Origin: a virus
Length of the DNA: 46,768 bases
Direction: 5' to 3' (one strand)
IMG/VR virus record: IMGVR_UViG_3300042400_001112
Location: 1 to 46,768 of that record
Shown here: positions 8,964 to 46,583 of the stretch, piece after piece
How the letters are laid out: each line of letters opens with the position of its first letter
Position numbering within the stretch: the first letter of the stretch is position 1
The notes under the pieces: model-generated
The model's database searches: none
What the model was told of the DNA's origin: nothing
Seen by the model: only the letters and a program-made list of their open reading frames with translations
Program-made: the position numbers and the translations under genes

Positions 8964-9299
8964 ATGAAAAATATACTATCAAGTTTAACTGATTCTGAAA
9001 AAAGAAGAATCACCGAAATGCATAAAAATGCCACTAAAAGGAATTATTTAAAAGAGGCACAAGATGATGTAAAAATGTGTAAATCTATGCCAAAAAAACC
9101 AACACCAAAATGTAGTGAATTAGGAATATATGATAATTTTAGTCAATCAGCTTTGGCTGGTGGAGAGCCTGTAGTTTATACTGAGGATAATAATGTATTA
9201 TTTGCAATTCCATTTAAAAAAGAATATGAGGTGGCTGGTTATGGGTGTTTAGAAGGGTGTATAGTACCTATGGAAACAAAATTACAAATAGTAAAATAG
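8964..9299 (+). CDS. Small Cys-rich protein with N-terminal cargo-type tag
   Basis: A 111-residue protein. The first 31 residues are a helical, basic leader (MKNILSSLTDSEKRRITEMH, then NATKRNYLKE) ending in L29-K-E31 before Ala, which fits the T4 gp21 prohead-protease rule (I/L)-x-E. An ITE occurs earlier at 16-18. The mature part has four Cys, at CKSM, KCSELG and GCLEGC. The KCSELG region resembles PQCSEAG in the gene at 9891, so the two may be paralogues. It leads a run of four tagged genes. Packaging into the head is inferred, and the function after delivery is unknown. Confidence 0.6.
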   Translation: MKNILSSLTDSEKRRITEMHKNATKRNYLKEAQDDVKMCKSMPKKPTPKCSELGIYDNFSQSALAGGEPVVYTEDNNVLFAIPFKKEYEVAGYGCLEGCIVPMETKLQIVK

Positions 9300-9311
9300 T
9301 TTAACTATATA

Positions 9312-9869
9312 ATGAAAAATATTTTAATTTCTGAGTCTGAAAAAAAACACATCTTAAATTTACATAATAAAGTTAAAATTTTATTATCAGAAAGTGTTTC
9401 GGTCGGAGACAGGGCTCCAGAATTAAAATTAATAGACTTTCAAAAAGGAAGAGATATTTTACTAACCAATTACTTTGGTAAACCTATTATACTTATGTAT
9501 TACTTATATTCATGTAGCTCTTGTATCTCAAGAATGAAACAGATTGTAAATAATAATACAAACAAATATACAACAATACTTGCAACTTATTTAGATTACA
9601 GTAAAGACGCTTATCATGATATAAAAAGTCAAAAAGAAATGTGTGAAAAAAAATCAAATTTAGTACCAGGATCAATAAATGGTTATGATTTATCTAAATC
9701 TAAAATTGAAATGTATAAAAATGCGGATGGAACACATTTAGGTTCTGGAAATCATTACGGAGGAACACCACCAAAAACTGTTTTAATAAATTCTGAAGGT
9801 AATATAACTTATGTTGAGGTTGGTACAGACGAAGAATCTTTTAAAAATGCTTTAAATGAATTAAAATAA
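9312..9869 (+). CDS. Tagged thioredoxin-fold (AhpC/TSA or TlpA-like) protein
   Basis: A 185-residue protein. Residues 1-27 form the leader (MKNILISESEKKHILNLHNK, then VKILLSE) ending L25-S-E27. The rest reads as a peroxiredoxin/TlpA-like domain: SVGDRAPELKLIDF, the redox pair C68-S-S-C71 after YLYS, and the cis-Pro loop GGTPPKTVLIN. The family reduces or forms disulfides or reduces peroxides. No hydrophobic signal peptide or lipobox is present, and the tag occupies that place. It sits among three small Cys-rich tagged genes, which may be its substrates. A head-packaged oxidoreductase is inferred. Confidence 0.75.
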   Translation: MKNILISESEKKHILNLHNKVKILLSESVSVGDRAPELKLIDFQKGRDILLTNYFGKPIILMYYLYSCSSCISRMKQIVNNNTNKYTTILATYLDYSKDAYHDIKSQKEMCEKKSNLVPGSINGYDLSKSKIEMYKNADGTHLGSGNHYGGTPPKTVLINSEGNITYVEVGTDEESFKNALNELK

Positions 9870-9890
9870 AAAATAAAAAAAATAAAAAAA

Positions 9891-10136
9891 ATGAAAAGAT
9901 TGGTAAGATTAGGAGAAAGAGACCTATCAAGAATAGTTAGAAAAGTTATAATGGAACAATCATGTTCGGCAGAAGATCAAAAACCATCTGCAGGTAGACC
10001 ACAATGTTCTGAGGCTGGTGTAACAAGTGGTAAAATAATTTCACTTGGGGAACTTATGTTTTTACATTATAGAGACGAAGCTAATTGTCCTAAATTGTGT
10101 TCGGTAAATCAAGAAACACAAGTAACATTATCTTAA
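9891..10136 (+). CDS. Small Cys-rich protein with N-terminal cargo-type tag
   Basis: An 81-residue protein. The leader MKRLVRLGERDLSRIVRKVI ends I20-M-E22. It matches almost position by position the leader of the gene at 44758 (RLTESDLTRIVKKIISE), although the rest of the two proteins is unrelated. The mature part holds about five Cys (SCSAED, PQCSEAG, NCPKLCS) and resembles the Cys-rich half of the 8964 product. It lies 21 bases after the thioredoxin-fold gene. Confidence 0.6.
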   Translation: MKRLVRLGERDLSRIVRKVIMEQSCSAEDQKPSAGRPQCSEAGVTSGKIISLGELMFLHYRDEANCPKLCSVNQETQVTLS

Positions 10137-10140
10137 TTTT

Positions 10141-10506
10141 GTGAGTTTTAATGTTAAAATAAATAGGGTCAAACAATTAATGGGTTTAATTGTAGAATCT
10201 TTATCTGAAGAAGAAAGGGTTATTTATTATAACAAATGTGAAGGCGGTATAGGAAAAATAGACCCAAATAGTTTTATATTTAACGGAAAACAAATTGATG
10301 ATGAAACTAAAGAAGAAAGAGATGTGATACTTTTTTTAAAAGAACCTGATTTAGAGTATAATGATGGAGATAGTAAAAGTATACCGACATGTTTAGGTGA
10401 AGACAGACCATTAACAGGAAGATGTTTTAATATTTACCCTTGTGAAGAAAATAAAGAATGTGCAACATATGAAGTTGATTGCAAAACTAAAAAAAATCTT
10501 TGGTAA
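10141..10506 (+). CDS. Small Cys-rich protein with N-terminal cargo-type tag (GTG start)
   Basis: GTG 10141 is chosen as start. It lies just after the upstream stop and gives the leader MSFNVKINRVKQLMGLIVES, then LSE, with possible cleavage at I17-V-E19 or L21-S-E23. The next in-frame ATG (10180) would remove most of the leader. The body has about eight Cys (NKCEGG, PTCLGED, GRCFNIYPC, KECATYEVDC) in an acidic background, which suggests a disulfide-rich or metal-binding domain. It is the last of the four-gene tagged run and no family is recognised. Confidence 0.5.
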   Translation: MSFNVKINRVKQLMGLIVESLSEEERVIYYNKCEGGIGKIDPNSFIFNGKQIDDETKEERDVILFLKEPDLEYNDGDSKSIPTCLGEDRPLTGRCFNIYPCEENKECATYEVDCKTKKNLW

Positions 10507-10530
10507 TTTAAAATAAAATTATTACATTTG
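10499..10530 (+). promoter_or_regulatory. Bacteroidota-type promoter (TTTG-N20-TAnnTTTG)
   Basis: TTTG (10499-10502), 20 bases, then TACATTTG (10523-10530). This is an exact match to the known Bacteroides/Flavobacterium sigma-A consensus. The secreted-protein gene starts 18 bases downstream. The -33 box overlaps the end of the previous gene. Confidence 0.75.
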
Positions 10531-10548
10531 TATTCATATATTATTATC

Positions 10549-10923
10549 ATGAATACATTATTTTTTTATTTATTTTTATTTTTTTCATCAACACTTTTAT
10601 CACAAACATTAACATTAAAAACAACAAAGTTAGAAATATGTGATGGTTATGATAATGTTCTTTTTGTGAATGATACTTGTGATATAGTTTTATATATAAA
10701 AAATGACACACTTTCATTAGAAAATTCAAAAACAAATCATAAAAGTTTTTATATATTTTCAGAAATAATAGAAAGTGGTAATGGGTTTATTTCTTGGAAA
10801 TGTAAAGAAGCCGAAGAAAAAGGTGTGATTTTATTTTATTTACAGGAAAAACAAAACAATAACTATATATTTTATATATTTTTTTTAAATCAAACATATA
10901 GGTACTATTGTGAAAAAATATAA
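10549..10923 (+). CDS. Secreted protein with flavobacterial-type signal peptide
   Basis: A 124-residue protein. ATG 10549 is preferred over TTG 10528 because the TTG lies in the promoter box. It starts with a hydrophobic signal peptide (MNTLFFYLFLFFSSTLLSQT), and an end in Ser-Gln is typical of Flavobacteriia. The mature part is a single beta-rich domain with three or four Cys. The gene has its own promoter and terminator, so it is an independent unit resembling a moron. An exported product could act at the host envelope, for example in superinfection exclusion, but this is only inference. Confidence 0.65.
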   Translation: MNTLFFYLFLFFSSTLLSQTLTLKTTKLEICDGYDNVLFVNDTCDIVLYIKNDTLSLENSKTNHKSFYIFSEIIESGNGFISWKCKEAEEKGVILFYLQEKQNNNYIFYIFFLNQTYRYYCEKI

Positions 10924-10929
10924 ATTATT

Positions 10930-10955
10930 AACCCACCCATAAGGTGGGTTTTTTG
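10930..10955 (+). terminator. Rho-independent terminator
   Basis: AACCCACC (10930-10937) pairs with GGTGGGTT (10943-10950) around a 5-base loop and runs into a T6 tract. It closes the single-gene unit of the secreted protein. Confidence 0.9.
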
Positions 10956-10959
10956 TTGA

Positions 10960-10990
10960 TTGACATTTTAATCAAATCTGACTATATTTA
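10960..10990 (+). promoter_or_regulatory. Putative promoter of the gp47/gp46 operon
   Basis: TTGA (10960-10963), 19 bases, then TATATTTA (10983-10990), ending 4 bases before ATG 10995. It directly follows a terminator, so a new promoter is expected here. The near-zero leader predicts a leaderless mRNA. Confidence 0.5.
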
Positions 10991-10994
10991 GTCT

Positions 10995-11774
10995 ATGATA
11001 AAAAAACTTGTACATTTCTCAGACTTACATATAAGGTTATTTAAAGATCACGACCTTTATAGGTTAATAATGGAAGATGCAATTAATCAATGGAAAGAAA
11101 TTGAACCAGATCGTATTGTATTTACAGGAGACCTTGTTCATTCTAAAAACCAAATGACACCTGAGCTCATTGAAATGGTAAGTTGGATTTTAAAAGAATG
11201 TTCTTATATTACAAAAACAATAATTATTCCTGGTAATCACGATTTCCTTGTGAATAACACAGATAGGTTAGACGCTTTATCTCCGATTATCGATTCATTA
11301 AATAACAAAAATATTGTCTATTACAAGGACCGTGGTGTTTATGAAGATGAAAATGTTAGTTGGTGTGTGTACTCTCAATACCAAGGTAATATTCCACCAG
11401 ACTTGAACGTTGCAACCGGGATTAAAGTCGGTTTATTTCACGGACCAATCCAAGGAATGAAAACAGATTTAGGTTTTGATTTTGGTGAAGAGGCATATGA
11501 TGTTGAAAAATTCAATGGGTTAGATATTGTATTATGTGGTGATATTCACAAAAGACAGGAGTTTAAATTTAAAACTGGTAAAGGATATATGATTGGTTCA
11601 CCAATCCAACAGAACATTGGAGAAAGTATCAGAAACCACGGTTTCGGAACTTACGATTTCGGTACCAAAGAATACACATATACTGATCTTTATAACCCAA
11701 GACCATTTCTTAAATTTTCAATAAATTCATTTGAAGATATCGAAAATGGAATTGAAAAATTACATAATTATTAA
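10995..11774 (+). CDS. 47: SbcD/Mre11-type nuclease, T4 gp47 homologue
   Basis: A 259-residue calcineurin-like nuclease subunit. The metal-binding motifs appear in order: HFSDLHIRL, FTGDLVHS, IPGNHDF, GLFHGPI and LCGDIHKRQ. The length is nearer to phage gp47 (about 340) than to bacterial SbcD, with a short C-terminal cap. With the SbcC/gp46 partner (13056) it would form the Mre11-Rad50-type complex that resects DNA ends for recombination-dependent replication. Three small genes separate it from its partner, whereas in T4 the pair is nearly adjacent. Confidence 0.92.
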   Translation: MIKKLVHFSDLHIRLFKDHDLYRLIMEDAINQWKEIEPDRIVFTGDLVHSKNQMTPELIEMVSWILKECSYITKTIIIPGNHDFLVNNTDRLDALSPIIDSLNNKNIVYYKDRGVYEDENVSWCVYSQYQGNIPPDLNVATGIKVGLFHGPIQGMKTDLGFDFGEEAYDVEKFNGLDIVLCGDIHKRQEFKFKTGKGYMIGSPIQQNIGESIRNHGFGTYDFGTKEYTYTDLYNPRPFLKFSINSFEDIENGIEKLHNY

Positions 11775-12748: not shown

Positions 12749-12761
12749 AAAAAAATAAAAA

Positions 12762-13052: not shown

Positions 13053-13055
13053 TAA

Positions 13056-15431
13056 ATGGATCTATTTAATCCACCAAAACTATACAATTACGACATTATG
13101 ATAAAAGAATTGGATTTTTCAAATTTTGAAAACCCAACTATTCAGGTTGTTTGGGAAGATGTACAAGAAAACTTTACTCAAGATAAAATAAAAAGCATTA
13201 AACACTATTTCCAAAAAAAATATAATACGACTAATGTTAATGTTCTAACTAAGGTTAAAACTAATAATGAAGAAACAATGCAAACTGTTGACGTATCCGT
13301 TAACATTACAGATTCAAATTATCAGTTAGATTTATTAAAAAAATTTTTAGAGGTTAAAGGATATGATAAAAATTTAGATAAAATATTAGAATTAAATAGA
13401 TCTGTTGAAAATAAAATGGAGGAGGGTGATGTTGATGTAACACAGTTTAAAAAATGGTACATTAAAAGTATAGAATTTTCTAATTTCTTATCATATGGTG
13501 AAAATCAAAAAATAAATTTTGATGATCTTAATGGTTTGATTGTTGTTGAATCAGACCCACCAAATTTTGGAGGTAAAACAGTACTATCCGTAGACCTACT
13601 AATGTTTTTATTTTTTAATGAGACAACAAAGACAACAAAGGCAGAGGAAATATTTAATCGATTTACCGATAAAGACTCGGTAGTTGTCAAGGGTGAAATT
13701 ACAATTGATGGTGAAGATTATATAATTCTAAGGAAGATAGAAAGAAAAAAATCAAAAAAAGGAGAGTGGAATGTTAAAACAGAACTGGACTTTTTTAAAA
13801 AATTATATGATGGTAGTTTACAAAATTTTACAGGGGAACAAAGAAGAGAAACGGAAGCATTCATTAAAAACTCAATAGGAACAAAAGAAGATTTTTTAAT
13901 GACAATATTAACAACTGCAACAAATCTTGAAGAACTTTTAGAATCCAAACCAACAGCAAGAGGACAAGTTTTGTCAAGATTTATGGGGTTGGAATTTCTT
14001 AAAAGAAAAGAAGAAGTTGCAAAAGAAATTTATTCTGAATTTAATAAATCAAAAATATCTAACCTATATAGTTCTGAACAATTAAAAACTGATATTGATA
14101 ACTATGTTATTAAAATAAAAGAGGATCAAAATAAGATTAAAGAATGTGAGATAGAACTTAAAGATATTGAGGAAAATATAAATAAAGGTAAACAATATCG
14201 TGATGACATGTTAAATAAAAAACATAACGATATTGATAAAGAAATTTTATTTATGAATCCTGAAGAGTCAAAAAATGAAATAGAAAAATTAAATAACGAA
14301 AAATTAAATATAAATAATAAATTAAATGAATTAAAAGTTATTGAACCATCTGAATTTTATTACGAAGATAAACATGATGATGTTAAAGAAGAATATAACA
14401 AAGTGTTTAAGGAGAAGATTGAGTTGGACACTAAAATAAAAGAAATTGAAAAGTTACAATCTTCGGTTAAAGGAGGAATTAAGTGTGAACACTGTGGTAT
14501 TGAATTAATGAACGCGGCAATTACACAAAAAAAAATATCTGAACTTGATGGTTATATTATACATAAACAGGAGAAAGAGGGTTTAATGCAGGTTTTAACT
14601 GACAAAGAACAAAGTTATGTAAATCTTAAAAAGGAATTTGATGAGTATGAAAAAAATAAACTCATCAAAGAAAAATATGAGTTAAGTATCGAAAGTTGTG
14701 ATCTAAAAATAGAAGGTATAAAGAATAAAATACAAAGGTGGGAAGAAGTCCAAGATAAAATTAAGTCAAATAAAAAAATTGATGAAATGTTAATAAAGGC
14801 CGACCTAAGATTAGAAGAACTTGAAAGAGTTAAAAAGAACAAAGAAAACGAAATATCCTCAACAGAGTATAGTATAAAAACTAATGGTGAAAAGATAGAA
14901 CATAATAAAAATTTAATTTTAAAAATTAAAGAAGAAGAAGAAAAAGACGTAGTCTATAAAGTATATTTAGAAGCCTATGGTAAAAATGGAGTATCCAAGA
15001 CAATAATGAGAACTATGATGCCATTAATAAATTCAGAATTACAAAGATTAATGGAAGATAGTTCTTATTTTAAACTGGAAGTTAGAATAAATGATAAAAG
15101 TGAAGTTGAGTTTATTATGGTTGATAATAGTACGGGTATTGAAAAACTAATGGTTTCAGGGTCTGGATATGAAAAAACAATAGCCTCATTAGCCTTAAGA
15201 TCCGTACTAAGTAAAATTTGCTCATTACCAAAGCCTAATATTGTGGTATTTGATGAGGTATTTGGAAAAATATCTAACGATAATTTAGAAATGGTTTCTG
15301 AGTTTTTCATTAAAATTAAAACTTATTTTGATAAAATATTTTTAATTTCCCACAATCCATTGGTTAATCAATGGGCGGATTCTACAGTAAAAATAACAAA
15401 ACAAAATAACGTATCAAAATTATTAAATTAA
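13056..15431 (+). CDS. 46: SbcC/Rad50-type ATPase, T4 gp46 homologue
   Basis: A 791-residue protein that pairs with the gp47 homologue. Residues 1-130 are an extra N-terminal domain. The ATPase begins at WYIKSIEFSNFLSYGENQKI. The Walker A loop reads ESDPPNFGGKT (about 165-175), with Pro in place of the usual first Gly. A coiled coil on both sides surrounds a zinc hook, C477-E-H-C480. Near the C-terminus are the ABC signature (SGSGYEKTIASLALR, about 698-712), Walker B (NIVVFDEVFG) and the H-loop (FLISHNP). It should tether and process DNA ends. The extra domain and altered P-loop are unusual. Confidence 0.9.
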   Translation: MDLFNPPKLYNYDIMIKELDFSNFENPTIQVVWEDVQENFTQDKIKSIKHYFQKKYNTTNVNVLTKVKTNNEETMQTVDVSVNITDSNYQLDLLKKFLEVKGYDKNLDKILELNRSVENKMEEGDVDVTQFKKWYIKSIEFSNFLSYGENQKINFDDLNGLIVVESDPPNFGGKTVLSVDLLMFLFFNETTKTTKAEEIFNRFTDKDSVVVKGEITIDGEDYIILRKIERKKSKKGEWNVKTELDFFKKLYDGSLQNFTGEQRRETEAFIKNSIGTKEDFLMTILTTATNLEELLESKPTARGQVLSRFMGLEFLKRKEEVAKEIYSEFNKSKISNLYSSEQLKTDIDNYVIKIKEDQNKIKECEIELKDIEENINKGKQYRDDMLNKKHNDIDKEILFMNPEESKNEIEKLNNEKLNINNKLNELKVIEPSEFYYEDKHDDVKEEYNKVFKEKIELDTKIKEIEKLQSSVKGGIKCEHCGIELMNAAITQKKISELDGYIIHKQEKEGLMQVLTDKEQSYVNLKKEFDEYEKNKLIKEKYELSIESCDLKIEGIKNKIQRWEEVQDKIKSNKKIDEMLIKADLRLEELERVKKNKENEISSTEYSIKTNGEKIEHNKNLILKIKEEEEKDVVYKVYLEAYGKNGVSKTIMRTMMPLINSELQRLMEDSSYFKLEVRINDKSEVEFIMVDNSTGIEKLMVSGSGYEKTIASLALRSVLSKICSLPKPNIVVFDEVFGKISNDNLEMVSEFFIKIKTYFDKIFLISHNPLVNQWADSTVKITKQNNVSKLLN

Positions 15432-21140: not shown

Positions 21141-22532
21141 ATGAGAAATTACAAAAGAATATTATCTGAAAAATATAATACAACAAAATTTAATAGACCT
21201 GGAAAATCGTTTGATTACGTCGAAAATGAAATGGAAGAAGGTAACGCATTTACGGATGCTCTTAGAAGAACCAAAAAAGGTGAAAAATTTAAATTGGGTA
21301 ATAAAGAATATACTGATAGATCTTCTTTAGAAGAGGATGACACAATTTACGAGTTGGAAGTAAATGAAAGTGATATTTGTGAATGTGGAGGTATGAAACT
21401 GGAAGGAGAATGCACAGAATGTGGTATGAAAGAATCCAATCTTTTAGAATTTGATGATGAAGAATATTTAAGAGGGGTTGATGACAGTTGGAGACCAAAT
21501 TTTGATGATATGGATATGGATATAAGTAATCCTGATGAGTTACCAACGTTTAAATCTGACGGAACTTATTTAGGAATGAAACATTCGCCAAATATGGACA
21601 TGGAGTTTGACGATGAATATCCTGATATGAAAATCCCTGATGATAAAGATGATTTTAAGTTTAATGCACCATCACCTGATTACGATTATAGGGAAGATAA
21701 ATATGATGATTTTAAGTTTAATGCACCATCACCTGATTACGATTATAGGGAAGATGAAGATGATTTTAAATCAATGAGAGGTAGATTCTTTGATAAAGAA
21801 GATGAGGAAGATGAGTGGGGTGGTAAGTCAAAAATGTATGAATACGAGATTTTTAATGAGAAATTAGGAAGATCTTTTAGATTAACAGAAGAACAAGTTG
21901 TTAATCTAATTGAAAATTTAGCCGAGGAAAAATTGAAACCAACTAAAAAAACAAGAGGTTATTCTGAATATGAAAAATCTTTCAATAAATCAGGAAAAAA
22001 TAATACAGACTACTATAAAGAAGTTGGTAAAAAAATGAAAGACTATATGAAAGATGGATCAAAAGAATTTTTTAATATGGAACCTGATCATTTTCCTATG
22101 GGTAATGGAGAATTAAAGAAAATGGATAAAATGACTTACATACCTTCAGACAGTGTTGCTGAATATGTTGAAAATTTTACCGCCGCCGCTCTTGAGAATA
22201 TAGACTACGATGAAATTGGACCAAATGAGGAATGGGTAGAATCTAATATAGTAGGGTCATCAAAAACAGGTAACAACCCTAAATGGGCAAATGCTGTTGA
22301 GACCCCAACAAACAAAAAAAGAAACGAAATAAGAGAAAAAAATATGTTGGCTCAAGTAAAAAGAAAGGCATATAATAAATCACCACAACCAATAGTAAAA
22401 GATAGACCTGGTGGTAATGATGCGTCTGATTTATTGGATAAATTGGAAAAAAAATCTAAAAAATCTAAAAATGTTAATGAGGATTTAGAAAGAATCGGTC
22501 AACTTATTTCCTACGATAGAAAAACACAATAA
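21141..22532 (+). CDS. Tagged acidic protein with zinc-ribbon-like motif and 19-residue repeats
   Basis: A 463-residue protein. ATG 21141 is preferred over TTG 21108, which lies inside the previous gene. The leader MRNYKRILSE ends L8-S-E10, the shortest clear tag after the doubtful one at 39179. C80-x-C82 and C91-x-x-C94 form a ribbon-like site. The middle is acidic with two exact copies of a 19-residue unit (DDFKFNAPSPDYDYREDKY). A helical C-terminal region follows. The size, acidity and tag fit an abundant internal head or core protein, but no homologue is recalled. Confidence 0.6.
   Translation: MRNYKRILSEKYNTTKFNRPGKSFDYVENEMEEGNAFTDALRRTKKGEKFKLGNKEYTDRSSLEEDDTIYELEVNESDICECGGMKLEGECTECGMKESNLLEFDDEEYLRGVDDSWRPNFDDMDMDISNPDELPTFKSDGTYLGMKHSPNMDMEFDDEYPDMKIPDDKDDFKFNAPSPDYDYREDKYDDFKFNAPSPDYDYREDEDDFKSMRGRFFDKEDEEDEWGGKSKMYEYEIFNEKLGRSFRLTEEQVVNLIENLAEEKLKPTKKTRGYSEYEKSFNKSGKNNTDYYKEVGKKMKDYMKDGSKEFFNMEPDHFPMGNGELKKMDKMTYIPSDSVAEYVENFTAAALENIDYDEIGPNEEWVESNIVGSSKTGNNPKWANAVETPTNKKRNEIREKNMLAQVKRKAYNKSPQPIVKDRPGGNDASDLLDKLEKKSKKSKNVNEDLERIGQLISYDRKTQ
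21648..21761 (+). repeat. 57-bp tandem repeat, two copies
   Basis: Copy 1 is 21648-21704 and copy 2 is 21705-21761, nearly identical, with the first 11 bases of a third copy from 21768. The 57-bp period keeps the frame and encodes 19 residues, DDFKFNAPSPDYDYREDKY. Confidence 0.9.
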
Positions 22533-26080: not shown

Positions 26081-26587
26081 TTATAATATTACAGTCCTTA
26101 AATGAAAATACTTTTCTAACATAACTTTTCTTGCTTGAACAACATCTTTCCCATAAAGTTTTAAATAAGTCCCATTATCGGAAAATGTACTTGAGACTAT
26201 TAAAAATGTATTATCCTCATCTCTTGCAAGTATGAATTCAATATAGTCAAATACTTCTTCATCTTCATTATCTTCTCTTTTAAATACAAATTTTATTTTT
26301 TTCTCAGTTGGGTCTTTAGAAAATTCGTATAAAATTTTTTTATATTTATCACGTATTAGACGAGAAAGCATAGTATTAGGTACACCAACTCTTGTATGAA
26401 TATTACTACCTGAATCTATTGCATTTAATATTATATCTTTTATTTCCTCATAACTTAAATTACTTTTCCTGTCTAATGTTTGATGAGTTGTTGCAATAAA
26501 TTTTGGACCTTCTGGTGCGGTAAAAAGCTTGTGGTGTTTACCACGATTTTCTAATATTATACTTTTAAGTACACTTAATACTTTCAT
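26081..26587 (-). CDS. Tagged protein, possibly a nuclease-fold effector
   Basis: A 168-residue protein. ATG 26587 is chosen over 26635 because the longer version would start inside the upstream terminator stem. It also gives a clean leader, MKVLSVLKSIILE, ending I11-L-E13. The body has FIATTHQTLDRKSNLSYEEI, a helix, and a beta-rich C-terminal half (FDYIEFILARDEDNTFLIVS). This order faintly recalls the BECR-fold RNase-like domains of phage polyvalent proteins. That is a guess from pattern only. It is the only tagged gene here on the minus strand. Confidence 0.55.
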   Translation of the reverse strand: MKVLSVLKSIILENRGKHHKLFTAPEGPKFIATTHQTLDRKSNLSYEEIKDIILNAIDSGSNIHTRVGVPNTMLSRLIRDKYKKILYEFSKDPTEKKIKFVFKREDNEDEEVFDYIEFILARDEDNTFLIVSSTFSDNGTYLKLYGKDVVQARKVMLEKYFHLRTVIL

Positions 26588-27734: not shown

Positions 27735-29666
27735 ATGGAACTTGTAAAGTTATTATCAAATATAGTTAAAGAAAATACATCTAAAAATAAAAGAGTACTA
27801 TTAGAATACCCTGAGTCTACAGTTAAAAAATTAGTAGACAAATTCCAAAAACAAACTCAAGATAGTGAAGAAGAAATAAGATCTATAATTTCTGATTTTG
27901 AAAGATTTAAATCGGCATTACCTGGAAATGAGAGAGATATATTTGGATATGACTATCAAAAATTAAAAGATACCGTAACATCTAAGTCCGAAAGTCAAAA
28001 AACTAAAAAAACATTTGATGATGTTTACAATGAGTTCATGAAGAAAAACGCTGGTGCTGATAAGAGGTTAACAAAACTTAATATTAAGAAATTTTTTGAA
28101 ATGAAAGCCTTAGATCCAAAAAGATTTAAGAAAGATATACTTAACATGACTTCACTTGAGTTATCTGCGTTAATTAGAAAAGATTTTGAAAACTTCATGA
28201 AAGAAAAATTAGCTGAAAAGTTAATTAAAGACAATCCACAAGAGAATATTGAACAAATTATGAATAGGGTTGATAGATACGTTGCAAACTATCCTTTAGT
28301 TCCTATTAATACAAAACCGGCTGGAATGATGACTTTTGTAGAGTTTGAACATGTTGTTGACGTTCTACCTATGCAAGATGAGTATAAGATGCCTGAAGTT
28401 GACGTAAGTGATGTTAACGTTACTTATGAAGATGACGATATTTTAATTTTTGAACCAGATCAAAAACATAAGTGTATTAACATTAGAAAAAAATTCGCTC
28501 CTGACAGAAGATGGTGTACATCTTGGGAAGGTTCAGGAAACTATTATTATAATTATAGATTAAGACAAAACTTAACTTTATATTATGTTATTAATAAGAA
28601 CTTAAAGGAAAGTGATGTTAATTTCGCTGTTGTTATTTTAGTTGATTATGATTGGAGAAATAATGTACAATTTAGACTTGCTGATGGAACCAACAGTGGA
28701 AGATTTGCGGGATCTACAGTAATGCCTTGGAGTGAAATCATACAAAAAATACCAAATCTTAAAGGTAAAGAAAAATATTTTGTACCTCATCCATTCCCTG
28801 TTGAACAACAAAGTATGATGATGGCTTTTGAAAGAAAAAATTTAACAACAAATGACCCAATTAAAGAGTTAGGATCAGAAGAAAATGTTGAGTTATGGTT
28901 AGAATTAAGAACACCAGATCTGTCATCACTAGCAAATGGGGCTCTAATATGGGCAAACTTTACACCATATTTAAGACATAAATACATTGGTATGGATGGT
29001 AAACTTACAGGTCCTATGTTAAAGGCATCAGATAAAGAAAGTAAGGACTATTATCTTTCTAAAAAGAGAAAATCATTATTATTAACAGATATAGACAAAT
29101 TGAGTGAGGCCGATGTATCTTTAATTATGAGTGATGAAATGGCCCCTTACCATGAGGCTTTAATTAATGCGTACTCTAAACAACTTGCTAAAAAAGACTT
29201 AGATCTTTCTTATTTACCTATTACATTCCCTAGCGATGCAGCGGCCAAATTTGCTATGATGTTTGGTCTTGAAGTTTTATTTGAAATGTTACCTGAAGAT
29301 ACAAAATTCATAAATTTAGAAAATAAATCAGACAAAGTTGAACCGTTTCACGTACCTTCAAATATATCAAGATTTAAAGGTTTAAAAACTCTTGTTGCTG
29401 ATAATATTATAAAAAGTTTACCTGAGTCTATAGGTGAATGTAAAATGTTAAGTTTTATTAATGTAACCGGTAATAAAGAACTTACAACATTACCAAGATC
29501 CATTGCAAATTTACACTGTCTAACATTCTTATCTGTTTTAGATTCAAGTATTGATGTTAAGAACTTACCAAAAGAATTATTTAAATACATGATGCCAACA
29601 GAAGATTTCTTTATTGTTAATTTCCCTAAAGAGTTAAGAGAAAAAAGAGGATGCCCAACTAGTTAA
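27735..29666 (+). CDS. Tagged protein with WC-motif domain and leucine-rich repeats
   Basis: A 643-residue protein. The N-terminal leader (MELVKLLSNIVKENTSKNKR, then VLLE) ends L22-L-E24. Residues about 40-200 are helical. A domain near 240-340 contains RRWCTSWEGSG then LTLYYVINKNL, shared in outline with the gene at 43047. The C-terminal part (about 520-640) holds leucine-rich repeats of the bacterial type (IIKSLPESIGECKMLSFINV; ELTTLPRSIANLHCLTFLSV). LRR domains usually bind proteins. Delivery into the host with the DNA is inferred from the leader. Confidence 0.65.
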   Translation: MELVKLLSNIVKENTSKNKRVLLEYPESTVKKLVDKFQKQTQDSEEEIRSIISDFERFKSALPGNERDIFGYDYQKLKDTVTSKSESQKTKKTFDDVYNEFMKKNAGADKRLTKLNIKKFFEMKALDPKRFKKDILNMTSLELSALIRKDFENFMKEKLAEKLIKDNPQENIEQIMNRVDRYVANYPLVPINTKPAGMMTFVEFEHVVDVLPMQDEYKMPEVDVSDVNVTYEDDDILIFEPDQKHKCINIRKKFAPDRRWCTSWEGSGNYYYNYRLRQNLTLYYVINKNLKESDVNFAVVILVDYDWRNNVQFRLADGTNSGRFAGSTVMPWSEIIQKIPNLKGKEKYFVPHPFPVEQQSMMMAFERKNLTTNDPIKELGSEENVELWLELRTPDLSSLANGALIWANFTPYLRHKYIGMDGKLTGPMLKASDKESKDYYLSKKRKSLLLTDIDKLSEADVSLIMSDEMAPYHEALINAYSKQLAKKDLDLSYLPITFPSDAAAKFAMMFGLEVLFEMLPEDTKFINLENKSDKVEPFHVPSNISRFKGLKTLVADNIIKSLPESIGECKMLSFINVTGNKELTTLPRSIANLHCLTFLSVLDSSIDVKNLPKELFKYMMPTEDFFIVNFPKELREKRGCPTS

Positions 29667-35111: not shown

Positions 35112-36617
35112 ATGAATAATAAATTAAGACTTACTGAAAATATAATAGTAAAAAAAATTCTTAAATTATTGAAAGAGGATGAAGTGGAGAAGGTATATAT
35201 AACCCCAGAAGACTATATTCAATATCTAAGACAAGTTGGATTTATGGCTCATGCTATACCGTATTTGCCACAGTTTAGAGATAAAAAACTTGTAGTAAAA
35301 GGTGATTTAGATGTTAGTAAAATTGACGGTAAACAAAGAATATATAAATTAGGAAATATTGAAGTTACGGGTAATTTAAATGTATCAAATACCGGTATAA
35401 AAAGTCTTGATGATGTTATTGTTGGTGGATATAAAACCTTTTGGAGAACTCCATACGAACAAGTAGTGGAAAGAAGAAAACAAAAGGCAAAATATGACGA
35501 ACAAAATGAAAAAAGAAAAGATAATGAGTGGGATCCTAATGATACCGATAGAGAAGGAGAAATGGCAAATGCGGCATTTGAATATGCCGTTAACAATGGT
35601 AATTTAGAAACTCTAACTGATGATGAAAAAGAAAGGATAAGAGAAATAGAAGAAGAAATACAATCACTTGAAGAACAACAAGAAAATTTAGACTCTGGTG
35701 ATGAGAACTATAGTGAAAAATTTGATGAGATTACAGACAAACAATCAGAACTTGAAGAAGAAAGAGATGAATTATTATCAGATAGAGTTGATGTTTATGA
35801 TTTATATCCTTCAGGTTCACACTATGAATTAAATGAATTCGAATCACTATCAACTAAACAAAGATATGCGGTAGGAACATATAGTGAGGCCGATAGTTCT
35901 TTAGAAACTTACTATGGTGAAATGGTTGATGACGCATCAAATTATTTTGACAATAATTATTTGTCCAATTACATAGATGAAGATAGGGTTAAAGAGTATT
36001 TTAGAGATTCTGTTGAAGAATGGGTTAGAGATGATCCTGATAGTTATGGGGTTGGAAAAGAATTAAGTAGAAGTCAAGAAGAGGAAATTTGGTTACTTGA
36101 AATGGAAAGATGGGTTTATGAGAACGAAGGAGTAAGGGCACCAATAAGGTACCCAACAAAAGAAAAAGATGGGACATTTGACTTTATGGATGCTGAAGAT
36201 AATAACTTACAATACAGAAGAAACGGAAATAATTGGGTTTTGTATAAAGATGGAAAAGTTGTCCCACCTCATCAGTTATATGATGATGAAAACACTGAAG
36301 AACACGATGAAGAACGTGAAAGTAGAATTTCTGATATAGATTATGAAATAGAAGAAATAAAAGATAATCCTGATGGTGATCCTGATGAGGATGAAATAGA
36401 AAGAGCGGTTGAAAATTATTTGGATGACGAGATTGGTTATGATGCATCTAGATGGTTAACTAATATGGGTTATGAAATTTCTGATTGGATAGATACTGGT
36501 GAATTATTAGATGATTTAGTTAGAAATGGGGAGTACGGACAATTAAATAGTCATGATGGTGATTATGATACTATTAATATTAATGGTACTGATTATGTTG
36601 TAATGAGATTAGATTAA
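35112..36617 (+). CDS. Tagged 501-residue acidic protein
   Basis: The leader MNNKLRLTENIIVKKILKLL, then KE, ends L20-K-E22. Residues about 60-105 form short repeated strands (LVVKGDLDVSKIDG; LGNIEVTGNLNVSNTG), like a beta-solenoid. A charged coiled coil follows (about 165-225). The C-terminal half is highly acidic and ends in a domain (YEISDWIDTGELLDDLVRNG, then a final TININGTDYVVMRLD) that I recall at the end of other large marine-phage proteins of unknown function. Size, tag and acidity suggest an internal virion protein. Confidence 0.6.
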   Translation: MNNKLRLTENIIVKKILKLLKEDEVEKVYITPEDYIQYLRQVGFMAHAIPYLPQFRDKKLVVKGDLDVSKIDGKQRIYKLGNIEVTGNLNVSNTGIKSLDDVIVGGYKTFWRTPYEQVVERRKQKAKYDEQNEKRKDNEWDPNDTDREGEMANAAFEYAVNNGNLETLTDDEKERIREIEEEIQSLEEQQENLDSGDENYSEKFDEITDKQSELEEERDELLSDRVDVYDLYPSGSHYELNEFESLSTKQRYAVGTYSEADSSLETYYGEMVDDASNYFDNNYLSNYIDEDRVKEYFRDSVEEWVRDDPDSYGVGKELSRSQEEEIWLLEMERWVYENEGVRAPIRYPTKEKDGTFDFMDAEDNNLQYRRNGNNWVLYKDGKVVPPHQLYDDENTEEHDEERESRISDIDYEIEEIKDNPDGDPDEDEIERAVENYLDDEIGYDASRWLTNMGYEISDWIDTGELLDDLVRNGEYGQLNSHDGDYDTININGTDYVVMRLD

Positions 36618-39178: not shown

Positions 39179-40561
39179 ATGAAAAAAAGAATAATATCAG
39201 AATCGGGTATAAGAGATATAAATAAATTAGCTAAAAGATACAAAAAAGCAAAAATATATTTTCACCAAGATTTAGACGGAGTAACAACTGCAATTGCAAT
39301 GAAAGAATATTTGGAGAACAACGGTATTAATGTTGTTGATGCTGAAATAATACAATATGGGGATAAAGAGTTTGCAATTAAAAAGTTAGATGCTGAGGGA
39401 GACATTATGCCTGTTTTGGTTGATTTTGCTCACGGGAAACCAATGTTTGTTATACACACCGATCACCACGATACACAAGCTGGTGTTGAAAAAGGAACCG
39501 CAACTTCTTTTAAAAGTTCAAGATCTAACGTTGAAACTATATCTCAAAGCATATCTGCAAAAGAAATTTTCACACAGGAAGATATTACTTTAATTTCTAC
39601 TGTAGATTCCGCAAATTTTGCTCAATATAATATATCTGTAGATGATGTTTTAAAATATCTATTTAAAATAGATAAAAACTCAGATATTAAAAGAAACAAA
39701 ATGTTAATGGGTTTGGTTGCCAATAAATTATTATTAGCATTTAAAAATAAACCAGGGTTTTTAGAAGAATTAGTTTTAGATTGTAAACCTTCGTTACTAA
39801 ATATCTTATTGAAAATTAAATCAATAATGAAAAGAGAAGGATTTGATAATGAAGAAAAATTAACACAAAATCAACAAGATTATATTCAAAGTATGAATGT
39901 TAGTCCTAATGTTAATGTTAGCGGTAACATATTAGTACAGTACGGTGGAGGATATATGACACCACAGGGTTCTTATGATAGATATACACCATTTAAAAAT
40001 AATCCTGACGCTGACTTTTTAGTTATTGCATGGCCAATGGGACTTGTCCAAGCATCATGTAACCCATATAAAAAAGAAAGAGCCCTTAAAGGTGTTGACT
40101 TAGGTGAAATAAAAAATGAGGTTTTAGATGAAATGAACCCAGAACTTGAAAGTATTATAGTGCCAATATCAATTTTAAAAAGAGTTTCAGAACAAAAAGC
40201 AACGTTTAAATCGGTTGGTTTTACATTTAAGGATTTTATGGCAATATACGGAAAAAGCCCGTCATTAAAAGTTTTTGGTAAAAAAGAATCTTTATTCCCG
40301 ATTATAGAAAATATAATGAATAGACCTTATAGGAGTTTAAGTGAAAAACAAAAGGCATTATTAGATAAAATAGTTTTGAATGGTAGAGATATAATAAATG
40401 CTAATTCAGGAGGACATAAATGTATTACTAATATCTCTGGTATTAGTTTTTTATATAGAAAAAAAGACGGTTCAGAACAAAAAAGTTATGTTGATTTAAC
40501 AAAAGAAATACAACAAAAATTTTACGAAATTCTACAAACAAAAATTAATAGCGAAAAATAA
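39179..40561 (+). CDS. DHH-family phosphoesterase
   Basis: A 460-residue protein. The DHH catalytic motifs are IYFHQDLDGVTTAIAMKEYL (D31, D33), VLVDFAHG (D82), FVIHTDHHDT (D95-H96-H97) and STVDSANF (D143). The family includes RecJ, NrnA and GGDEF-linked phosphodiesterases, which cut ssDNA, nanoRNA or cyclic dinucleotides. The C-terminal DHHA1-type domain is not obvious. The N-terminus MKKRIISE-SG ends I6-S-E8 and could be a very short cargo tag. It overlaps the convergent DUF192 gene by 17 bases. A role against cyclic-nucleotide defence signals is possible but unproven. Confidence 0.82.
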   Translation: MKKRIISESGIRDINKLAKRYKKAKIYFHQDLDGVTTAIAMKEYLENNGINVVDAEIIQYGDKEFAIKKLDAEGDIMPVLVDFAHGKPMFVIHTDHHDTQAGVEKGTATSFKSSRSNVETISQSISAKEIFTQEDITLISTVDSANFAQYNISVDDVLKYLFKIDKNSDIKRNKMLMGLVANKLLLAFKNKPGFLEELVLDCKPSLLNILLKIKSIMKREGFDNEEKLTQNQQDYIQSMNVSPNVNVSGNILVQYGGGYMTPQGSYDRYTPFKNNPDADFLVIAWPMGLVQASCNPYKKERALKGVDLGEIKNEVLDEMNPELESIIVPISILKRVSEQKATFKSVGFTFKDFMAIYGKSPSLKVFGKKESLFPIIENIMNRPYRSLSEKQKALLDKIVLNGRDIINANSGGHKCITNISGISFLYRKKDGSEQKSYVDLTKEIQQKFYEILQTKINSEK

Positions 40562-42041: not shown

Positions 42042-42045
42042 TATT

Positions 42046-42321: not shown

Positions 42322-42324
42322 TTT

Positions 42325-42411: not shown

Positions 42412-42439
42412 TTTTATAAAAAAAATTATATTATCTTTG
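42408..42439 (+). promoter_or_regulatory. Bacteroidota-type promoter overlapping a terminator, leaderless
   Basis: TTTG (42408-42411), 20 bases, then TATCTTTG (42432-42439), with ATG 42444 after 4 bases. The -33 TTTG is made of the last T residues of the preceding terminator. Confidence 0.75.
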
Positions 42440-42443
42440 TTTT

Positions 42444-42656: not shown

Positions 42657-42660
42657 GAAT

Positions 42661-43050: not shown

Positions 43051-44066
43051 GTAGATTAGACAGATTAAAAGAACAACATCCGGATTTGAATATATCATTA
43101 ATTGATATAATTTCTTATTTAGACCCAACCGATTCGTATAAGTATTTGGATTTTTTGATTAAAAACTTCAAAAGAGACAGTCAGTATTATAGTCCAAATA
43201 AAGAGGAGTTCATGGGATATATGGGTGTATTCCTATTTGGTTCTGGTGAGATTGAAACTTTAAATGAATTTGAAAGACATTCAAGAGCAAATAGAATTAA
43301 AATTAAAGATATTAGTCAGTATAGTAATTTTTTAGAATTAAACGAATCTGTTGTCCTTGCGCAAGAAATTGAAAACAGAAAAAAACTTGAAAAAGAAATA
43401 TTAAAGATTCACGAAGATGATACCTGGTTTATTCTAACACCATTAAGTTTTGAAGCGTCACAAGCGTATGGTGCAAACACAAAATGGTGTGTTACACAGG
43501 AAAAGTATTGGAATCAATATTTAACAACTCATAGGTTGATTTATGTTTTAAATAAAAAAACGGATACAAAGATTGCTTTCTCAAGAGATTTTTCAAAAGA
43601 AAAGTTTCAAGCTTGGGACCAATTAGATAAAGAAGTTGACCCAATGTTTATTAACTTTATTCCGGATGAATTGTTTTTAAAAATTAGAAAAGAATTACAA
43701 GAAAATAAAACAACTGGTGATTTAATTGGTTGGGGTGATAATACATCAACTATTAGAAGAATATCGGATTATCCTGAACTTAGAACACCTAGTGATATAG
43801 TAGAAGAATCACTTAGAATATGGGGAAGTGCCACAACTAATAGAGATGTAATTGGACCAATAAACAATGATTCAAGAAGTGTGACTTTTTCAGATGGTAT
43901 GATTGGTAGAATAAGGGAATTAATGAGAAGTAATGATTCTTCACATAGTGTGAATCCGCACCAAACAGTTAGTAATAGTCCAAAAGTAAATTATATTTCA
44001 ACCTATGACGATTATGCAAGACATTATATAACAAATAATGAAAATTATTTAGATGATTTACCTTAA
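43047..44066 (+). CDS. WC-motif domain protein (339 aa)
   Basis: The N-terminal half is helical (LDRLKEQHPDLNISLIDIIS). Around residues 125-185 is the domain also seen in the LRR protein at 27735: GANTKWCVTQ (K146-W-C148), then RLIYVLNKKTDTKIAFSRD. I recall this W-C pattern from many uncharacterised large-phage proteins. The C-terminal third is Ser/Asn-rich and probably flexible. It lacks a cargo tag. It overlaps the P-loop gene upstream, so the two may act together. Confidence 0.6.
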   Translation: MSRLDRLKEQHPDLNISLIDIISYLDPTDSYKYLDFLIKNFKRDSQYYSPNKEEFMGYMGVFLFGSGEIETLNEFERHSRANRIKIKDISQYSNFLELNESVVLAQEIENRKKLEKEILKIHEDDTWFILTPLSFEASQAYGANTKWCVTQEKYWNQYLTTHRLIYVLNKKTDTKIAFSRDFSKEKFQAWDQLDKEVDPMFINFIPDELFLKIRKELQENKTTGDLIGWGDNTSTIRRISDYPELRTPSDIVEESLRIWGSATTNRDVIGPINNDSRSVTFSDGMIGRIRELMRSNDSSHSVNPHQTVSNSPKVNYISTYDDYARHYITNNENYLDDLP

Positions 44067-44077
44067 ATATAAAAATT

Positions 44078-44731
44078 ATGAGCTTTAAAAAAATATTAAC
44101 AACAGGAAAAGTATATATAACTTCAGATACACACTACGGACACAAAAACATTTGTCGAGGCGTGACTAATTGGAGAACACAAGATGGTGAAATTCCCACA
44201 GACTCAACTAGAGATTTCCAAACTATAGAACAAATGAACGAAAGAATAATTGATGGTATAAATCATTATGTTGGTCAAGATGACACATTAATTATGTTAG
44301 GTGATGTATCATTTGGGGGTTTTGATAATATTGGAATATTCTTAGAAAGATTGGTTTGTCACAATATCCACTTGATATTAGGTAACCACGATCACCACAT
44401 AGAAAACAATAGGGATTATATTCAAGGTAGGTTTTTGAGTGTCCAACATTACTTGGAAGTTAAAATAAATGATAGAGACTTTGTCTTATGTCATTATCCA
44501 TTACAGAGCTGGCATGGAATGAACAAAGGAGTTATTCATCTTCACGGACACGTACACTTACCTGAAAACCGTAAATTTGGTAATGGTAAAAAAATGGACG
44601 TTGGTGTTGATGGAAACGGAATGGATCCATATAGTATTGATGAAATAATCAAAATAATGGATAAAAGACCTGTTGCGTTTGAAATGAACGGGGATCACCA
44701 TTTTGACGGATTAGTTGGAGTTGTGGGTTAA
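44078..44731 (+). CDS. Calcineurin-like metallophosphoesterase
   Basis: A 217-residue protein with all metallophosphatase motifs: YITSDTHYGHKNICRG (D17, H19), IMLGDVSFGG, LILGNHDHH, VLCHYPLQSWHG and HLHGHVHLP. It is most like the YfcE/phage phosphoesterase group. Such enzymes hydrolyse phosphodiesters or phosphoproteins, with substrates ranging from cyclic nucleotides to RNA 2',3'-cyclic phosphate. Next to a kinase-like gene it may act in nucleic-acid end repair, which is only an inference. Confidence 0.9.
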   Translation: MSFKKILTTGKVYITSDTHYGHKNICRGVTNWRTQDGEIPTDSTRDFQTIEQMNERIIDGINHYVGQDDTLIMLGDVSFGGFDNIGIFLERLVCHNIHLILGNHDHHIENNRDYIQGRFLSVQHYLEVKINDRDFVLCHYPLQSWHGMNKGVIHLHGHVHLPENRKFGNGKKMDVGVDGNGMDPYSIDEIIKIMDKRPVAFEMNGDHHFDGLVGVVG

Positions 44732-44750
44732 ATCACAACTCCAATATATT
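44715..44750 (+). terminator. Terminator-like hairpin overlapping a stop codon
   Basis: TTGGAGTTGTG (44715-44725) pairs perfectly with CACAACTCCAA (44734-44744), followed by TATATTTATAT. The stop TAA is in the loop. The T tract is interrupted, so termination may be partial. Confidence 0.6.
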
Positions 44751-44757
44751 TATATAT

Positions 44758-45318
44758 ATGAAAAAAATTATAAGACTTACAGAATCAGATTTGACTCGTA
44801 TTGTAAAAAAAATAATATCAGAAACTAGTTTGAGTAGAATACATAGACACATAATGCAACACGATTGTGCGGTAATTACCGGATTTAGGAATAAAATGGA
44901 AAATTGTGCTTTTGATGTTAAAAATAAAGACGAACTTTTAAAAAGATTTGAAAAAAAAGATAGAAATTTTGTATTAAAAAGGGTTTTACTTAATAGTGGG
45001 TATGGTATAACAGATGTTATGGGATCATATGTTGAAAACTATATGACTGATAATGCAATTGAAGTTAAGGAAGAGTCTTTGTTTGTTGTTAACACAATTA
45101 ATGACCCAAAATTTATTGATTTTATTATTACTTTGGGTAAAGTATATTGTCAAGATTCTGTTTTGATAATTAAAAAAGGTGGTAAAAATAACTTTATGGT
45201 TGGTACAAACCATGCAGAATTTCCAGGGTTAGATAAAATTGTAAAACTTGAAGACTTCAAACCTGGGTATGAAGGTGAATTTATGACACGAGTTAATGAT
45301 AGACCTTTTACGTTGTAA
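44758..45318 (+). CDS. Tagged DUF3293-like protein
   Basis: A 186-residue protein. The leader MKKIIRLTESDLTRIVKKII, then SE, ends I20-S-E22, with a second candidate at LTE 7-9. The body follows the DUF3293 pattern: HDCAVITGFRNK, KNKDELLKRFEKK, GYGITDVMGSYVE, EESLFVVNT and CQDSVLIIKKGG. That family has no known function in bacteria. The leader would then be a replacement N-terminus that sends a host-type domain into the capsid. A directly tagged neighbour follows after 14 bases. Confidence 0.68.
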   Translation: MKKIIRLTESDLTRIVKKIISETSLSRIHRHIMQHDCAVITGFRNKMENCAFDVKNKDELLKRFEKKDRNFVLKRVLLNSGYGITDVMGSYVENYMTDNAIEVKEESLFVVNTINDPKFIDFIITLGKVYCQDSVLIIKKGGKNNFMVGTNHAEFPGLDKIVKLEDFKPGYEGEFMTRVNDRPFTL

Positions 45319-45332
45319 CGCTATTTATTATT

Positions 45333-46583
45333 ATGAAAAAAATTATTCTCACAGAAAGACAATTAGATCAATTAAGTAAAAAACTTTTAAGTGAGGCCGT
45401 AGGCGTACCAAAAGGTATAATGGAAGCTGGAGAAAAACTATATTACAGAGTTTTAGATCTATTAAAGAGTATTAATTACGAGGCCGAAGATTATGAATTT
45501 GAATTAACGGATCAAGAATTAGTAGTTTCTGACCTTACAATAGAAACTATACATGTTTCAGTACATGTTGAGCAGATTGACGAATATGACGGTGAACCCG
45601 TAATCGCTTCAATGGGAGTTGCAAACGAATTTCAATTTGACGAAGGAATATTAATGCAAGTAAACGTTAAGAGTAAAGAACTAATGTTATCCATTAATTT
45701 TGTTGTTCCTGAAGATTGGCAAGGTAGTGATTTAGCAAAAACTTTATCTTCGGATGAAATACAAAATATATCTGTTATGGCCCATGAGTTAAAACATAGA
45801 TATGATAGGGATAAGAAAACTCAAGGTCTTGTAGGTGATGTTGCAGATTATCAAGCATATTCATCAGGAAGACTTAGATTTGGAATACCAATAATAGAAA
45901 AATTTATGAGATATAGTTATTTCATACAGATGTCAGAAAATTTAGTTAGACCAACAGAGGTGGCAACAAGAATGGTTCAAAAAGGAATAACTAAAGAACA
46001 ATTTTATGATTTTATGATAAACGATCCTGTTTTTATTGAACTAAAAGAAATACAAAACTTTTCTTTTGATTACTTCATGAATAGTTTATTGAATGAAATG
46101 GATAGGATTGATGGACTTATTGAACATACTGGAAATAACCCAAGTACGATGTCAGAAAGTGAAAAAATTCAATTTGTTTTAAGATTAGTGTATCTAAATT
46201 TAGCAAATGCTAAAGTAGAGTTTTTTGATAATTATTTTTATTCACACCAAGAAAAACTAGCACAAATGTTTGGAGGAGCTATGATGCAACTTTTTAATAA
46301 TCAATTCAAACAGAATGAAGAAAAAGAAAAAGTTAGAATAAAATTTATAAATCATGTAACAAAATATCAAAATAAAGAATCACAATTTTTTGTTGATGAA
46401 TGTGAAAGATTTAATTATGTTGCAACAAAACTTATTAAAAGAATATCAAAAATTTATGCTTTGATTCCTGATGAAAAAGAACAAACAAATGAGTCAATAT
46501 TAGATTGGGAACTACACCAAAAACTTATGGAAAAAAAGTATGGTAAAAGACCAATCCAAAATTCCTACAATTTCAAAAGATAG
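45333..46583 (+). CDS. Tagged HExxH zinc metalloprotease-like protein
   Basis: A 416-residue protein. The leader MKKIILTERQLDQLSKKLLS, then E, ends L19-S-E21. The next 120 residues are beta-rich. The zinc motif is VMAHELKHRYDRD with H151-E152-x-x-H155. A plausible third ligand is E202 or E209 in SENLVRPTEVATR. The C-terminal half is helical. The arrangement fits an injected protease or a structural peptidase-fold protein. Substrate and activity are unknown. Confidence 0.72.
   Translation: MKKIILTERQLDQLSKKLLSEAVGVPKGIMEAGEKLYYRVLDLLKSINYEAEDYEFELTDQELVVSDLTIETIHVSVHVEQIDEYDGEPVIASMGVANEFQFDEGILMQVNVKSKELMLSINFVVPEDWQGSDLAKTLSSDEIQNISVMAHELKHRYDRDKKTQGLVGDVADYQAYSSGRLRFGIPIIEKFMRYSYFIQMSENLVRPTEVATRMVQKGITKEQFYDFMINDPVFIELKEIQNFSFDYFMNSLLNEMDRIDGLIEHTGNNPSTMSESEKIQFVLRLVYLNLANAKVEFFDNYFYSHQEKLAQMFGGAMMQLFNNQFKQNEEKEKVRIKFINHVTKYQNKESQFFVDECERFNYVATKLIKRISKIYALIPDEKEQTNESILDWELHQKLMEKKYGKRPIQNSYNFKR

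Follow-up and report, generated by a model that had tools for sequence, protein, structure and literature searches.

What directs proteins with unrelated bodies to open with similar N-terminal leaders ending in (I/L)-x-E is the question raised by a 46,768-base stretch of viral DNA (IMG/VR record IMGVR_UViG_3300042400_001112, a partial genome with 27.7% guanine plus cytosine (GC); hereafter the window). An earlier note on this DNA had listed ten such proteins, and doubtfully an eleventh at 39179, as bearing one shared leader that would probably direct their loading into the virus head as in T4. All eleven open reading frames are present and open as described, with two starts corrected: 21141 sits within a TTG open reading frame listed as 21108, and the minus-strand protein at 26081 most likely begins at the ATG at 26587. 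Both the (I/L)-x-E ending and the unrelatedness of the bodies stood up to analysis, whereas the single leader gave way to several architectures (at least four types). As set out below, the leaders are very likely to be capsid-targeting propeptides that work like those of the T4 internal proteins, acting on a large, late-expressed cargo set; judging from sequence, it is very probable that the virus packs the tagged proteins into its head and carries them to the next host.

The window covers part of a T4-like phage genome of 290-320 kb and belongs to the freshwater Bacteroidota 'bS21 phage' group. With its gp46-type protein (13056-15431) as query, 80 relatives among viral contigs were kept (65-83% identity, records up to 322 kb), five long ones of which (G002, G003, G004, G005 and G006; 291-322 kb) were taken in whole. 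Leader counts refer to crude gene calls of these five genomes and the window (n = 1,913), with leader classes set by profile or regular expressions, so that a few false hits are included. Two of the long relatives carry a ribosomal S21 gene (Pfam score above cut-off) on the opposite strand inside the head cluster, and they were assigned to the bS21 phages because this arrangement is, in the passages of PMC9723584 covered here, the signature of freshwater Bacteroidota bS21 phages. The same passages describe genomes of up to 331 kb, among them one of 308 kb with 27.3% GC, and predict hosts among the Bacteroidetes on the strength of a single CRISPR spacer that matches a Flavobacterium genome, together with gene affiliations and the similarity of S21. 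The Bacteroidota host assumed in the earlier note is backed by this gene content of two relatives and by a cultured relative, Flavobacterium phage immuto, which is among the closest cultured phages by capsid protein (approx. 40% identity).

Exchange of leaders on the same body

The strongest evidence is the exchange of leaders on one and the same body. The DHH-like protein at 39179-40561 (coordinates are on the plus strand unless stated) has in the window the short leader MKKRIISE/S (39179-39202, ISE8, the slash marking the candidate cut; TATTTAT at −12). In 62 loci, 28 different leaders precede this body, including MKKLIKE, MKKRIISE, MKIIITESQYRQIIKE, MKKIVKLTESELTQVIKRMITE and MKDFVIKILTEESKLFLKE, all ending in (I/L)-x-E before SG(I/L)R, and E8, S9 and G10 are invariant in an alignment of 27 sequences. 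The protein regarded as doubtful in the earlier note is the best-supported case. Similarly, the putative metallopeptidase at 45333-46583, with the class C leader MKKIILTERQLDQLSKKLLSE/A (45333-45395, LSE21; TATTTAT at −11), shows 15 leaders of two main lengths in 29 loci, ending in (I/L)-x-E before A. The S-adenosylmethionine lyase-family protein at 44758-45318, with the class A leader MKKIIRLTESDLTRIVKKIISE/T (44758-44823, ISE22; TATTTAT at −11), reads IISE/TSLSRI in the window and ..NKIVE/SSLSRI after an unrelated, longer N-terminus in relative L166.

Ortholog comparison revealed leader swaps at the Glu for three more window proteins. That at 35112-36617 has the leader MNNKLRLTENIIVKKILKLLKE/D (35112-35177, LKE22; TATTTAT at −12), with class A, class C or short leaders in its orthologs; that at 21141-22532 has the short leader MRNYKRILSE/K (21141-21170, LSE10; TATTTAT at −20), replaced in orthologs by FLNE, KISE or quite different leaders; and that at 26081-26587 on the minus strand has the short leader MKVLSVLKSIILE/N (26549-26587, minus strand, ILE13), with TATTTAT approximately 12 nucleotides upstream of its ATG. 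The gene adjoining terminase in most relatives varies in the same manner (..INE/APIDY, ..IKE/APIDY, ..LNE/APIDY). In the AlphaFold model of the 45333 protein, the leader is a low-confidence helix (mean predicted local distance difference test, pLDDT, 41 over the first ten residues and 57 over the next ten) on a well-predicted body, as would be expected of a detachable part.

Two observations may be set beside these. A family with a KYYAFDWDDN motif, HAD-like by inspection (family 7, G002-G006), bears (I/L)-x-E leaders in all but one of the five genomes. Furthermore, the 21141 protein shares with its G006 ortholog a conserved internal class A-like stretch, RLTEEQVVNLIENLAEE (21879-21929, residues 247-263), possibly a second processing site.

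Leader classes and the boundary at Glu

Class A, with a consensus like MKKIIRLTESDLTRIVKRVIxE, is the type found at 9891 and 44758; class B reads MKxFIITEEEKxRILxMH... LxE (26 hits) and class C MKIIITESQYxxLxE (61 hits), while class D comprises the short leaders and class E reads ..ENIxRIxxMMGLxE. Totals for classes A-C are 37 in G003, 35 in G002, 24 in G005, 35 in G004 and 19 in G006. The genome-wide N-terminal profile that the earlier note had called for was built for class A (17 columns, score above 12) and matches 68 of the 1,913 proteins near the N-terminus, against 0.0 per shuffled run. Only seven matches above the same score lie elsewhere (six internal, one at residues 16-40), some of them mis-called starts or tandem or C-terminal copies. 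Mean pairwise identity is 57% between leaders and drops to 7% across the next 17 residues, and the information per column is 3.65 bits at the Glu and 1.26 at the next residue, soon approaching the null of 0.2-0.35. Odd class A copies include a tandem pair in one protein, a C-terminal one and an internal one (G006 224728-225318 and 262699-263652; G004 141671-142969).

Equal frequency of the leaders in non-virion genes, which the earlier note would have counted against itself, was not found: among 65 homologs of replication and metabolism genes a single regular-expression hit was found, an NrdF false positive, and classes A-C occur in 88 of the 412 genes that have the late-type motif discussed below versus 2 of the 422 that lack it. 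Viral contigs hold at least 119 stretches with the leader pattern; the species genomes of bacteria and archaea (n = 84,980) gave no exact match. A tblastn search of annotated phages with a 22-residue leader gave no match, the query being too short for significance, and the leader letter string was not found in the text of 5.39 million papers. In three genomes, leader genes are clustered, with 14-15 adjacent pairs against approximately 3-4 expected. In G002, a family of approximately 149-residue proteins beginning MKIIITENQYKLIKENISLKEKL is present in many similar copies (e.g. 166712-167158, 239222-242671), each with a class C leader.

The (I/L)-x-E rule, the protease and the capsid protein

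A class-free test considered x.E with Glu at residues 6-30 of all proteins, the expectation being the product of column frequencies. Two places before Glu (P3), I was found 500 times against 333 expected (z = 9.2) and L 514 times against 321 (z = 10.8), with no enrichment of V (z = −1.5), F (z = −3.3), M, A or K. Of the spacings from 1 to 5, the signal is most marked at spacing 2 (z = 13.7, compared with 4.7 at spacing 3). There is also an excess of R at two places after I/L (z = 7.1), which the class A helix would lead one to expect. The same test on crAss-like Bacteroidota phages gave z = 0.4 for I and −0.1 for L. Of 1,707 proteins, 601 have one or more [IL].E at residues 11-30 against 417 expected, an excess of approximately 35 per long genome; part of the signal at residues 6-10 comes from an inner site, since class A-C leaders hold an inner (I/L)-(T/S)-E. 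The enrichment is small in the window alone, and it is weak and mixed in the 80 gp46-selected loci (L, z = 3.6; I, 1.4; A, 3.8), which were left out of the support because they are probably redundant copies of one region.

A gp21-type prohead protease, which the earlier note had suggested looking for outside the window, was found in relatives. Among 15 records selected through gp46, 7 have a Peptidase_S77 gene above the Pfam cut-off, five of the six longest being among them; among 15 picked through leader matches, 11 do, and these take in all six of at least 232 kb. The G003 protein matches T4 gp21 (5jbl) with E = 2.6e-16. The capsid protein of the relatives matches T4 gp23 (E approx. 1e-25) and reads INE/A with Glu at residue 60 in five long relatives; six more have INE, LNE, LSE, IYE, LSE and IYE at the same place. 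All 11 capsid proteins examined in the group thus have (I/L)-x-E at the site matching T4 E65. In the T4 record, gp23 has LTE65 and gp24 LRE10, in agreement with mature chains of 456 and 417 residues versus 521 and 427.

A common upstream motif

TATTTAT was counted up to 60 bases upstream of those genes that have 25 or more upstream bases available. It precedes 88 of 90 class A-C leader genes and 23 of 24 class D genes, compared with 31 of 43 homologs of annotated immuto structural genes, 7 of 29 replication or metabolic homologs and 289 of 766 others. The background in shuffled sequence is 8.5%, the reverse complement is far rarer and the other 7-mers of like composition all fall far short. 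The (I/L)-x-E signal is confined to genes with the motif, with z = 8.9 for I.E and 8.8 for L.E in motif genes, and 4.7 and 4.0 after removal of leaders A-D, versus 0.4 and 1.2 in genes without it. On these grounds TATTTAT may be read as a putative late promoter. Several replication genes have instead TTG..TATATTT-like upstream sites, which are typical of Bacteroidota promoters.

In the window, the motif precedes 8964 (which opens the 8964-10506 run), 21141, 27735, 35112, 39179, 44758 and 45333, and also the minus-strand 26081 gene when counted from its likely start. In the relatives and the window, the distance to ATG has two peaks, at 11-13 bases (59 genes) and approximately 19-25 bases, about one helical turn apart; the near group would have almost no room for an untranslated leader.

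Other leader proteins of the window and the cargo bodies

The four-gene run at 8964-10506 follows a TATTTAT at 8941-8947 that begins 23 nucleotides before the first ATG. It starts with the 8964-9299 protein and its 31-residue class B leader MKNILSSLTDSEKRRITEMHKNATKRNYLKE/A (8964-9056, LKE31), followed 13 nucleotides behind by a redoxin-like protein (9312-9869) with the 27-residue class B leader MKNILISESEKKHILNLHNKVKILLSE/S (9312-9392, LSE27). The protein at 9891-10136 has the 22-residue class A leader MKRLVRLGERDLSRIVRKVIME/Q (9891-9956, IME22; position-specific scoring matrix score, 44.5), and that at 10141-10506, with a GTG start, has a leader assigned as class E-like from its sequence and the class E list, VSFNVKINRVKQLMGLIVE/SLSE/E (10141-10209), of which the site is uncertain (IVE19 or LSE23). 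The leader of 27735-29666 (27735-27812; TATTTAT at −22) has two candidate sites, VKE13 and LLE26.

Among 146 leader proteins, Pfam matches cover only 17 families, mostly through a single protein; S-adenosylmethionine lyase, redoxin, M23, GH19, PG_binding, LysM, lysozyme and M78 are among them. A cargo mostly without recognisable function is as expected of a fast-changing accessory set. The 44758 protein matches S-AdoMet_lyase PF23780 with 34.3 bits (cut-off, 28), and its L166 relative with 35.8 bits; a PDB sequence search with 44758 gave no match. The 39179 protein scores 20.8 bits against the DHH phosphoesterases PF01368, below the cut-off of 28.1, with HQDLDG and DHHD invariant; a PDB sequence search found no match, and the best Foldseek matches were mostly DHH-type proteins (E = 2.7e-4, with a moderate model of pLDDT 66). 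In the 45333 protein, H151, E152 and H155 of the HExxH motif are invariant in 17 sequences, and a fold search against PDB returned no match with E ≤ 0.001. Its C-terminal stretch NESIxxWxLHQKLMEKKYGKRxI (46482-46583) recurs in an unrelated HEVTH peptidase with its own leader (L555/L558), and N-terminally in another protein (L557/L559), a distribution that suggests a second movable module.

Proposed mechanism and alternative explanations

The proposed sequence of events is as follows. Late in infection, the tagged proteins would be made together with the head proteins, and the leader, as a short helix or an N-capped amphipathic helix, would dock each of them on the prohead core. The gp21-type protease would then cut after (I/L)-x-E, so that the leader is removed and a free body stays behind in the head; some of the bodies, at the least, would reach the next host along with the DNA. 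The leader, a separable module swapped between bodies, would let several dozen varied proteins per genome share one route. We infer the docking, cleavage, packaging and injection steps, as well as the roles of individual cargo proteins. For the Bacteroidota jumbo phages as a group, modular head loading by a swappable (I/L)-x-E tag, together with a TATTTAT late promoter on dozens of proteins per genome, is probable. The T4-style head loading of a large and varied set put forward in the earlier note is supported by the protease, by the genome-wide profile and by the rarity of leaders in non-virion genes, with several leader families taking the place of one.

It is unlikely, though not far-fetched, that the leaders are cleaved head propeptides of proteins that are mostly structural or scaffold-associated and stay in or on the head, with few or none being injected. 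Leader families 8, 9 and 11 do lie in the head-gene cluster near the terminase, portal and capsid genes, one tagged protein matches the minor head protein family phrog_1067, and the computed results bear on the leaders and none on injection. However, most tagged proteins vary between genomes and are scattered, and the recognisable bodies are enzymes (S-adenosylmethionine lyase, redoxin, DHH-like, M23 and GH19), unlikely as head building blocks; moreover, in T4 the internal proteins that bear leaders of this kind are injected (PMC12373910).

That the leader stays uncleaved and serves to dock the protein in some other late step (at the tail, the baseplate, or a chaperone or partner held in common), with the final Glu a structural feature of its helix, is quite improbable. 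Although the leaders resemble N-capped amphipathic helices with a conserved inner T/S-E, and are present on several peptidoglycan hydrolases, as could be the case for tail lysins, the short forms of 7-10 residues found on the same bodies retain little besides (I/L)-x-E, P3 is limited to I/L rather than open to hydrophobic residues generally, spacing 2 stands out and the conservation boundary falls at the Glu. A DNA-level cassette that acts in recombination, gene duplication or translation start and has no protein function is more improbable still: leader genes cluster and class A leaders are very alike, but identical residues share codons barely above chance (0.56 versus 0.48), upstream DNA likeness is 0.363 versus 0.341 for other genes, and unrelated short and long leaders share the same ending. 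Chance has a negligible probability. AT-rich genomes encode much I, L, K and E, the motif was picked by a reader, (I/L)-x-E alone is weak and its window-only enrichment is small, but this explanation is refuted at the phage-family level by the shuffles (0.0), the crAss-like null and the ortholog swaps, along with the positional expectation and the spacing and P3 controls.

Returning to capsid-targeting propeptides of the T4 kind, several points weigh against them. No virion proteomics was found for this phage group, and the window fragment holds no protease gene, so that the protease of the window phage itself is not demonstrable. The immuto capsid protein has V-S-E instead of I/L-x-E. By inspection, the leaders are unlike T4 ipI, which begins MKTFKEFTSTTTPV (ipII and ipIII were not compared) and which, as annotated, has no [IL]xE in its first 14 residues; the leaders are said to work like the T4 system, and not to be T4 leaders, because homology between them was not found. 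The inner (I/L)-(T/S)-E makes the exact cut ambiguous between the inner and outer sites; 14 of the 61 class C regular-expression hits are without a nearby [ILV].E, at least one being a false positive; and 27735, with V at P3 of its first candidate site, is the weakest case in the window. A pairwise-alignment test of the boundary was positive yet modest (16% versus 4%), and the positional and P3 statistics were preferred to it because it is diluted by ordinary differences in start sites. The late-promoter reading of TATTTAT rests on gene classes, not transcripts, and several cargo proteins are peptidoglycan-directed, not obviously cytoplasmic effectors.

Should the proposal hold, the leader and the upstream motif would together allow candidates for pre-loading to be catalogued, without culture, across a widespread group of environmental phages, and tag and promoter would read out the injected effector repertoire of uncultured phages from sequence alone, in hosts for which phage entry and counter-defence are little known. 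Candidates include the S-adenosylmethionine lyase-family protein, possibly an early block of restriction-modification, the DHH-like phosphoesterase, the peptidases and the peptidoglycan hydrolases.

Comparison with known systems

Among jumbo phages, phiKZ and SPN3US also have a gp21-related protease (gp175/gp245) and head proteins with N-terminal propeptides, many of which are ejected (PMC5694885). They differ in their motifs, A-x-E or S-x-E, in their mostly long propeptides and in proteases that are only distant relatives of gp21. As to Bacteroidota phages, the crAss-like loci differ from the present group in showing no (I/L)-x-E leader enrichment. The different head lineage of crAss001 is a further distinction. 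CrAss001 does resemble the present group in carrying proteins in its capsid, as described in the part of PMC10172136 covered here.

The bS21 phages of PMC9723584 share with two relatives the S21 gene in the head cluster, and one of their genomes has a GC content close to that of the window (27.3% versus 27.7%); leaders are unmentioned in the passages of that paper covered here. In immuto (L365-L368), at least four proteins have leaders of the MENFDLKKFLVENKLTxNSxxLKE type and two have MKKQILSEQFxRMQxLAGIITES; these are analogous to, but different from, the leaders described above. Because immuto has such leaders and one gene annotated as prohead protease, the idea is testable now in a cultured phage.

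In T4, the functions of the internal proteins were worked out singly, as restriction enzyme inhibitors, and the late promoter is TATAAATA. The T4 processing rule is L/I-X-E, with a 10-residue capsid-targeting sequence, and replacement of the Glu by Asp prevents processing (PMC9026906); the leader is the sole part common to Ip1-3 (PMC12373910). The likeness of IPI, IPII, IPIII and Alt to the present proteins thus extends to a short N-terminal leader on unrelated bodies, (I/L)-x-E, a homologous protease, a gp23 propeptide with the same motif and a cargo that varies between relatives (PMC9026906, PMC12373910). The differences lie in the several leader architectures per genome, in TATTTAT upstream in place of the T4 late promoter, in the Bacteroidota hosts and in numbers, 19-37 class A-C leader genes per long relative versus three Ips in T4. 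The novelty claimed for so broad a cargo set must be narrowed accordingly: T4-type leaders on unrelated bodies were known and capsid cargo of crAss001 is described in the part of PMC10172136 covered here, and it is the larger set and the variety of leaders that set the present group apart from T4.

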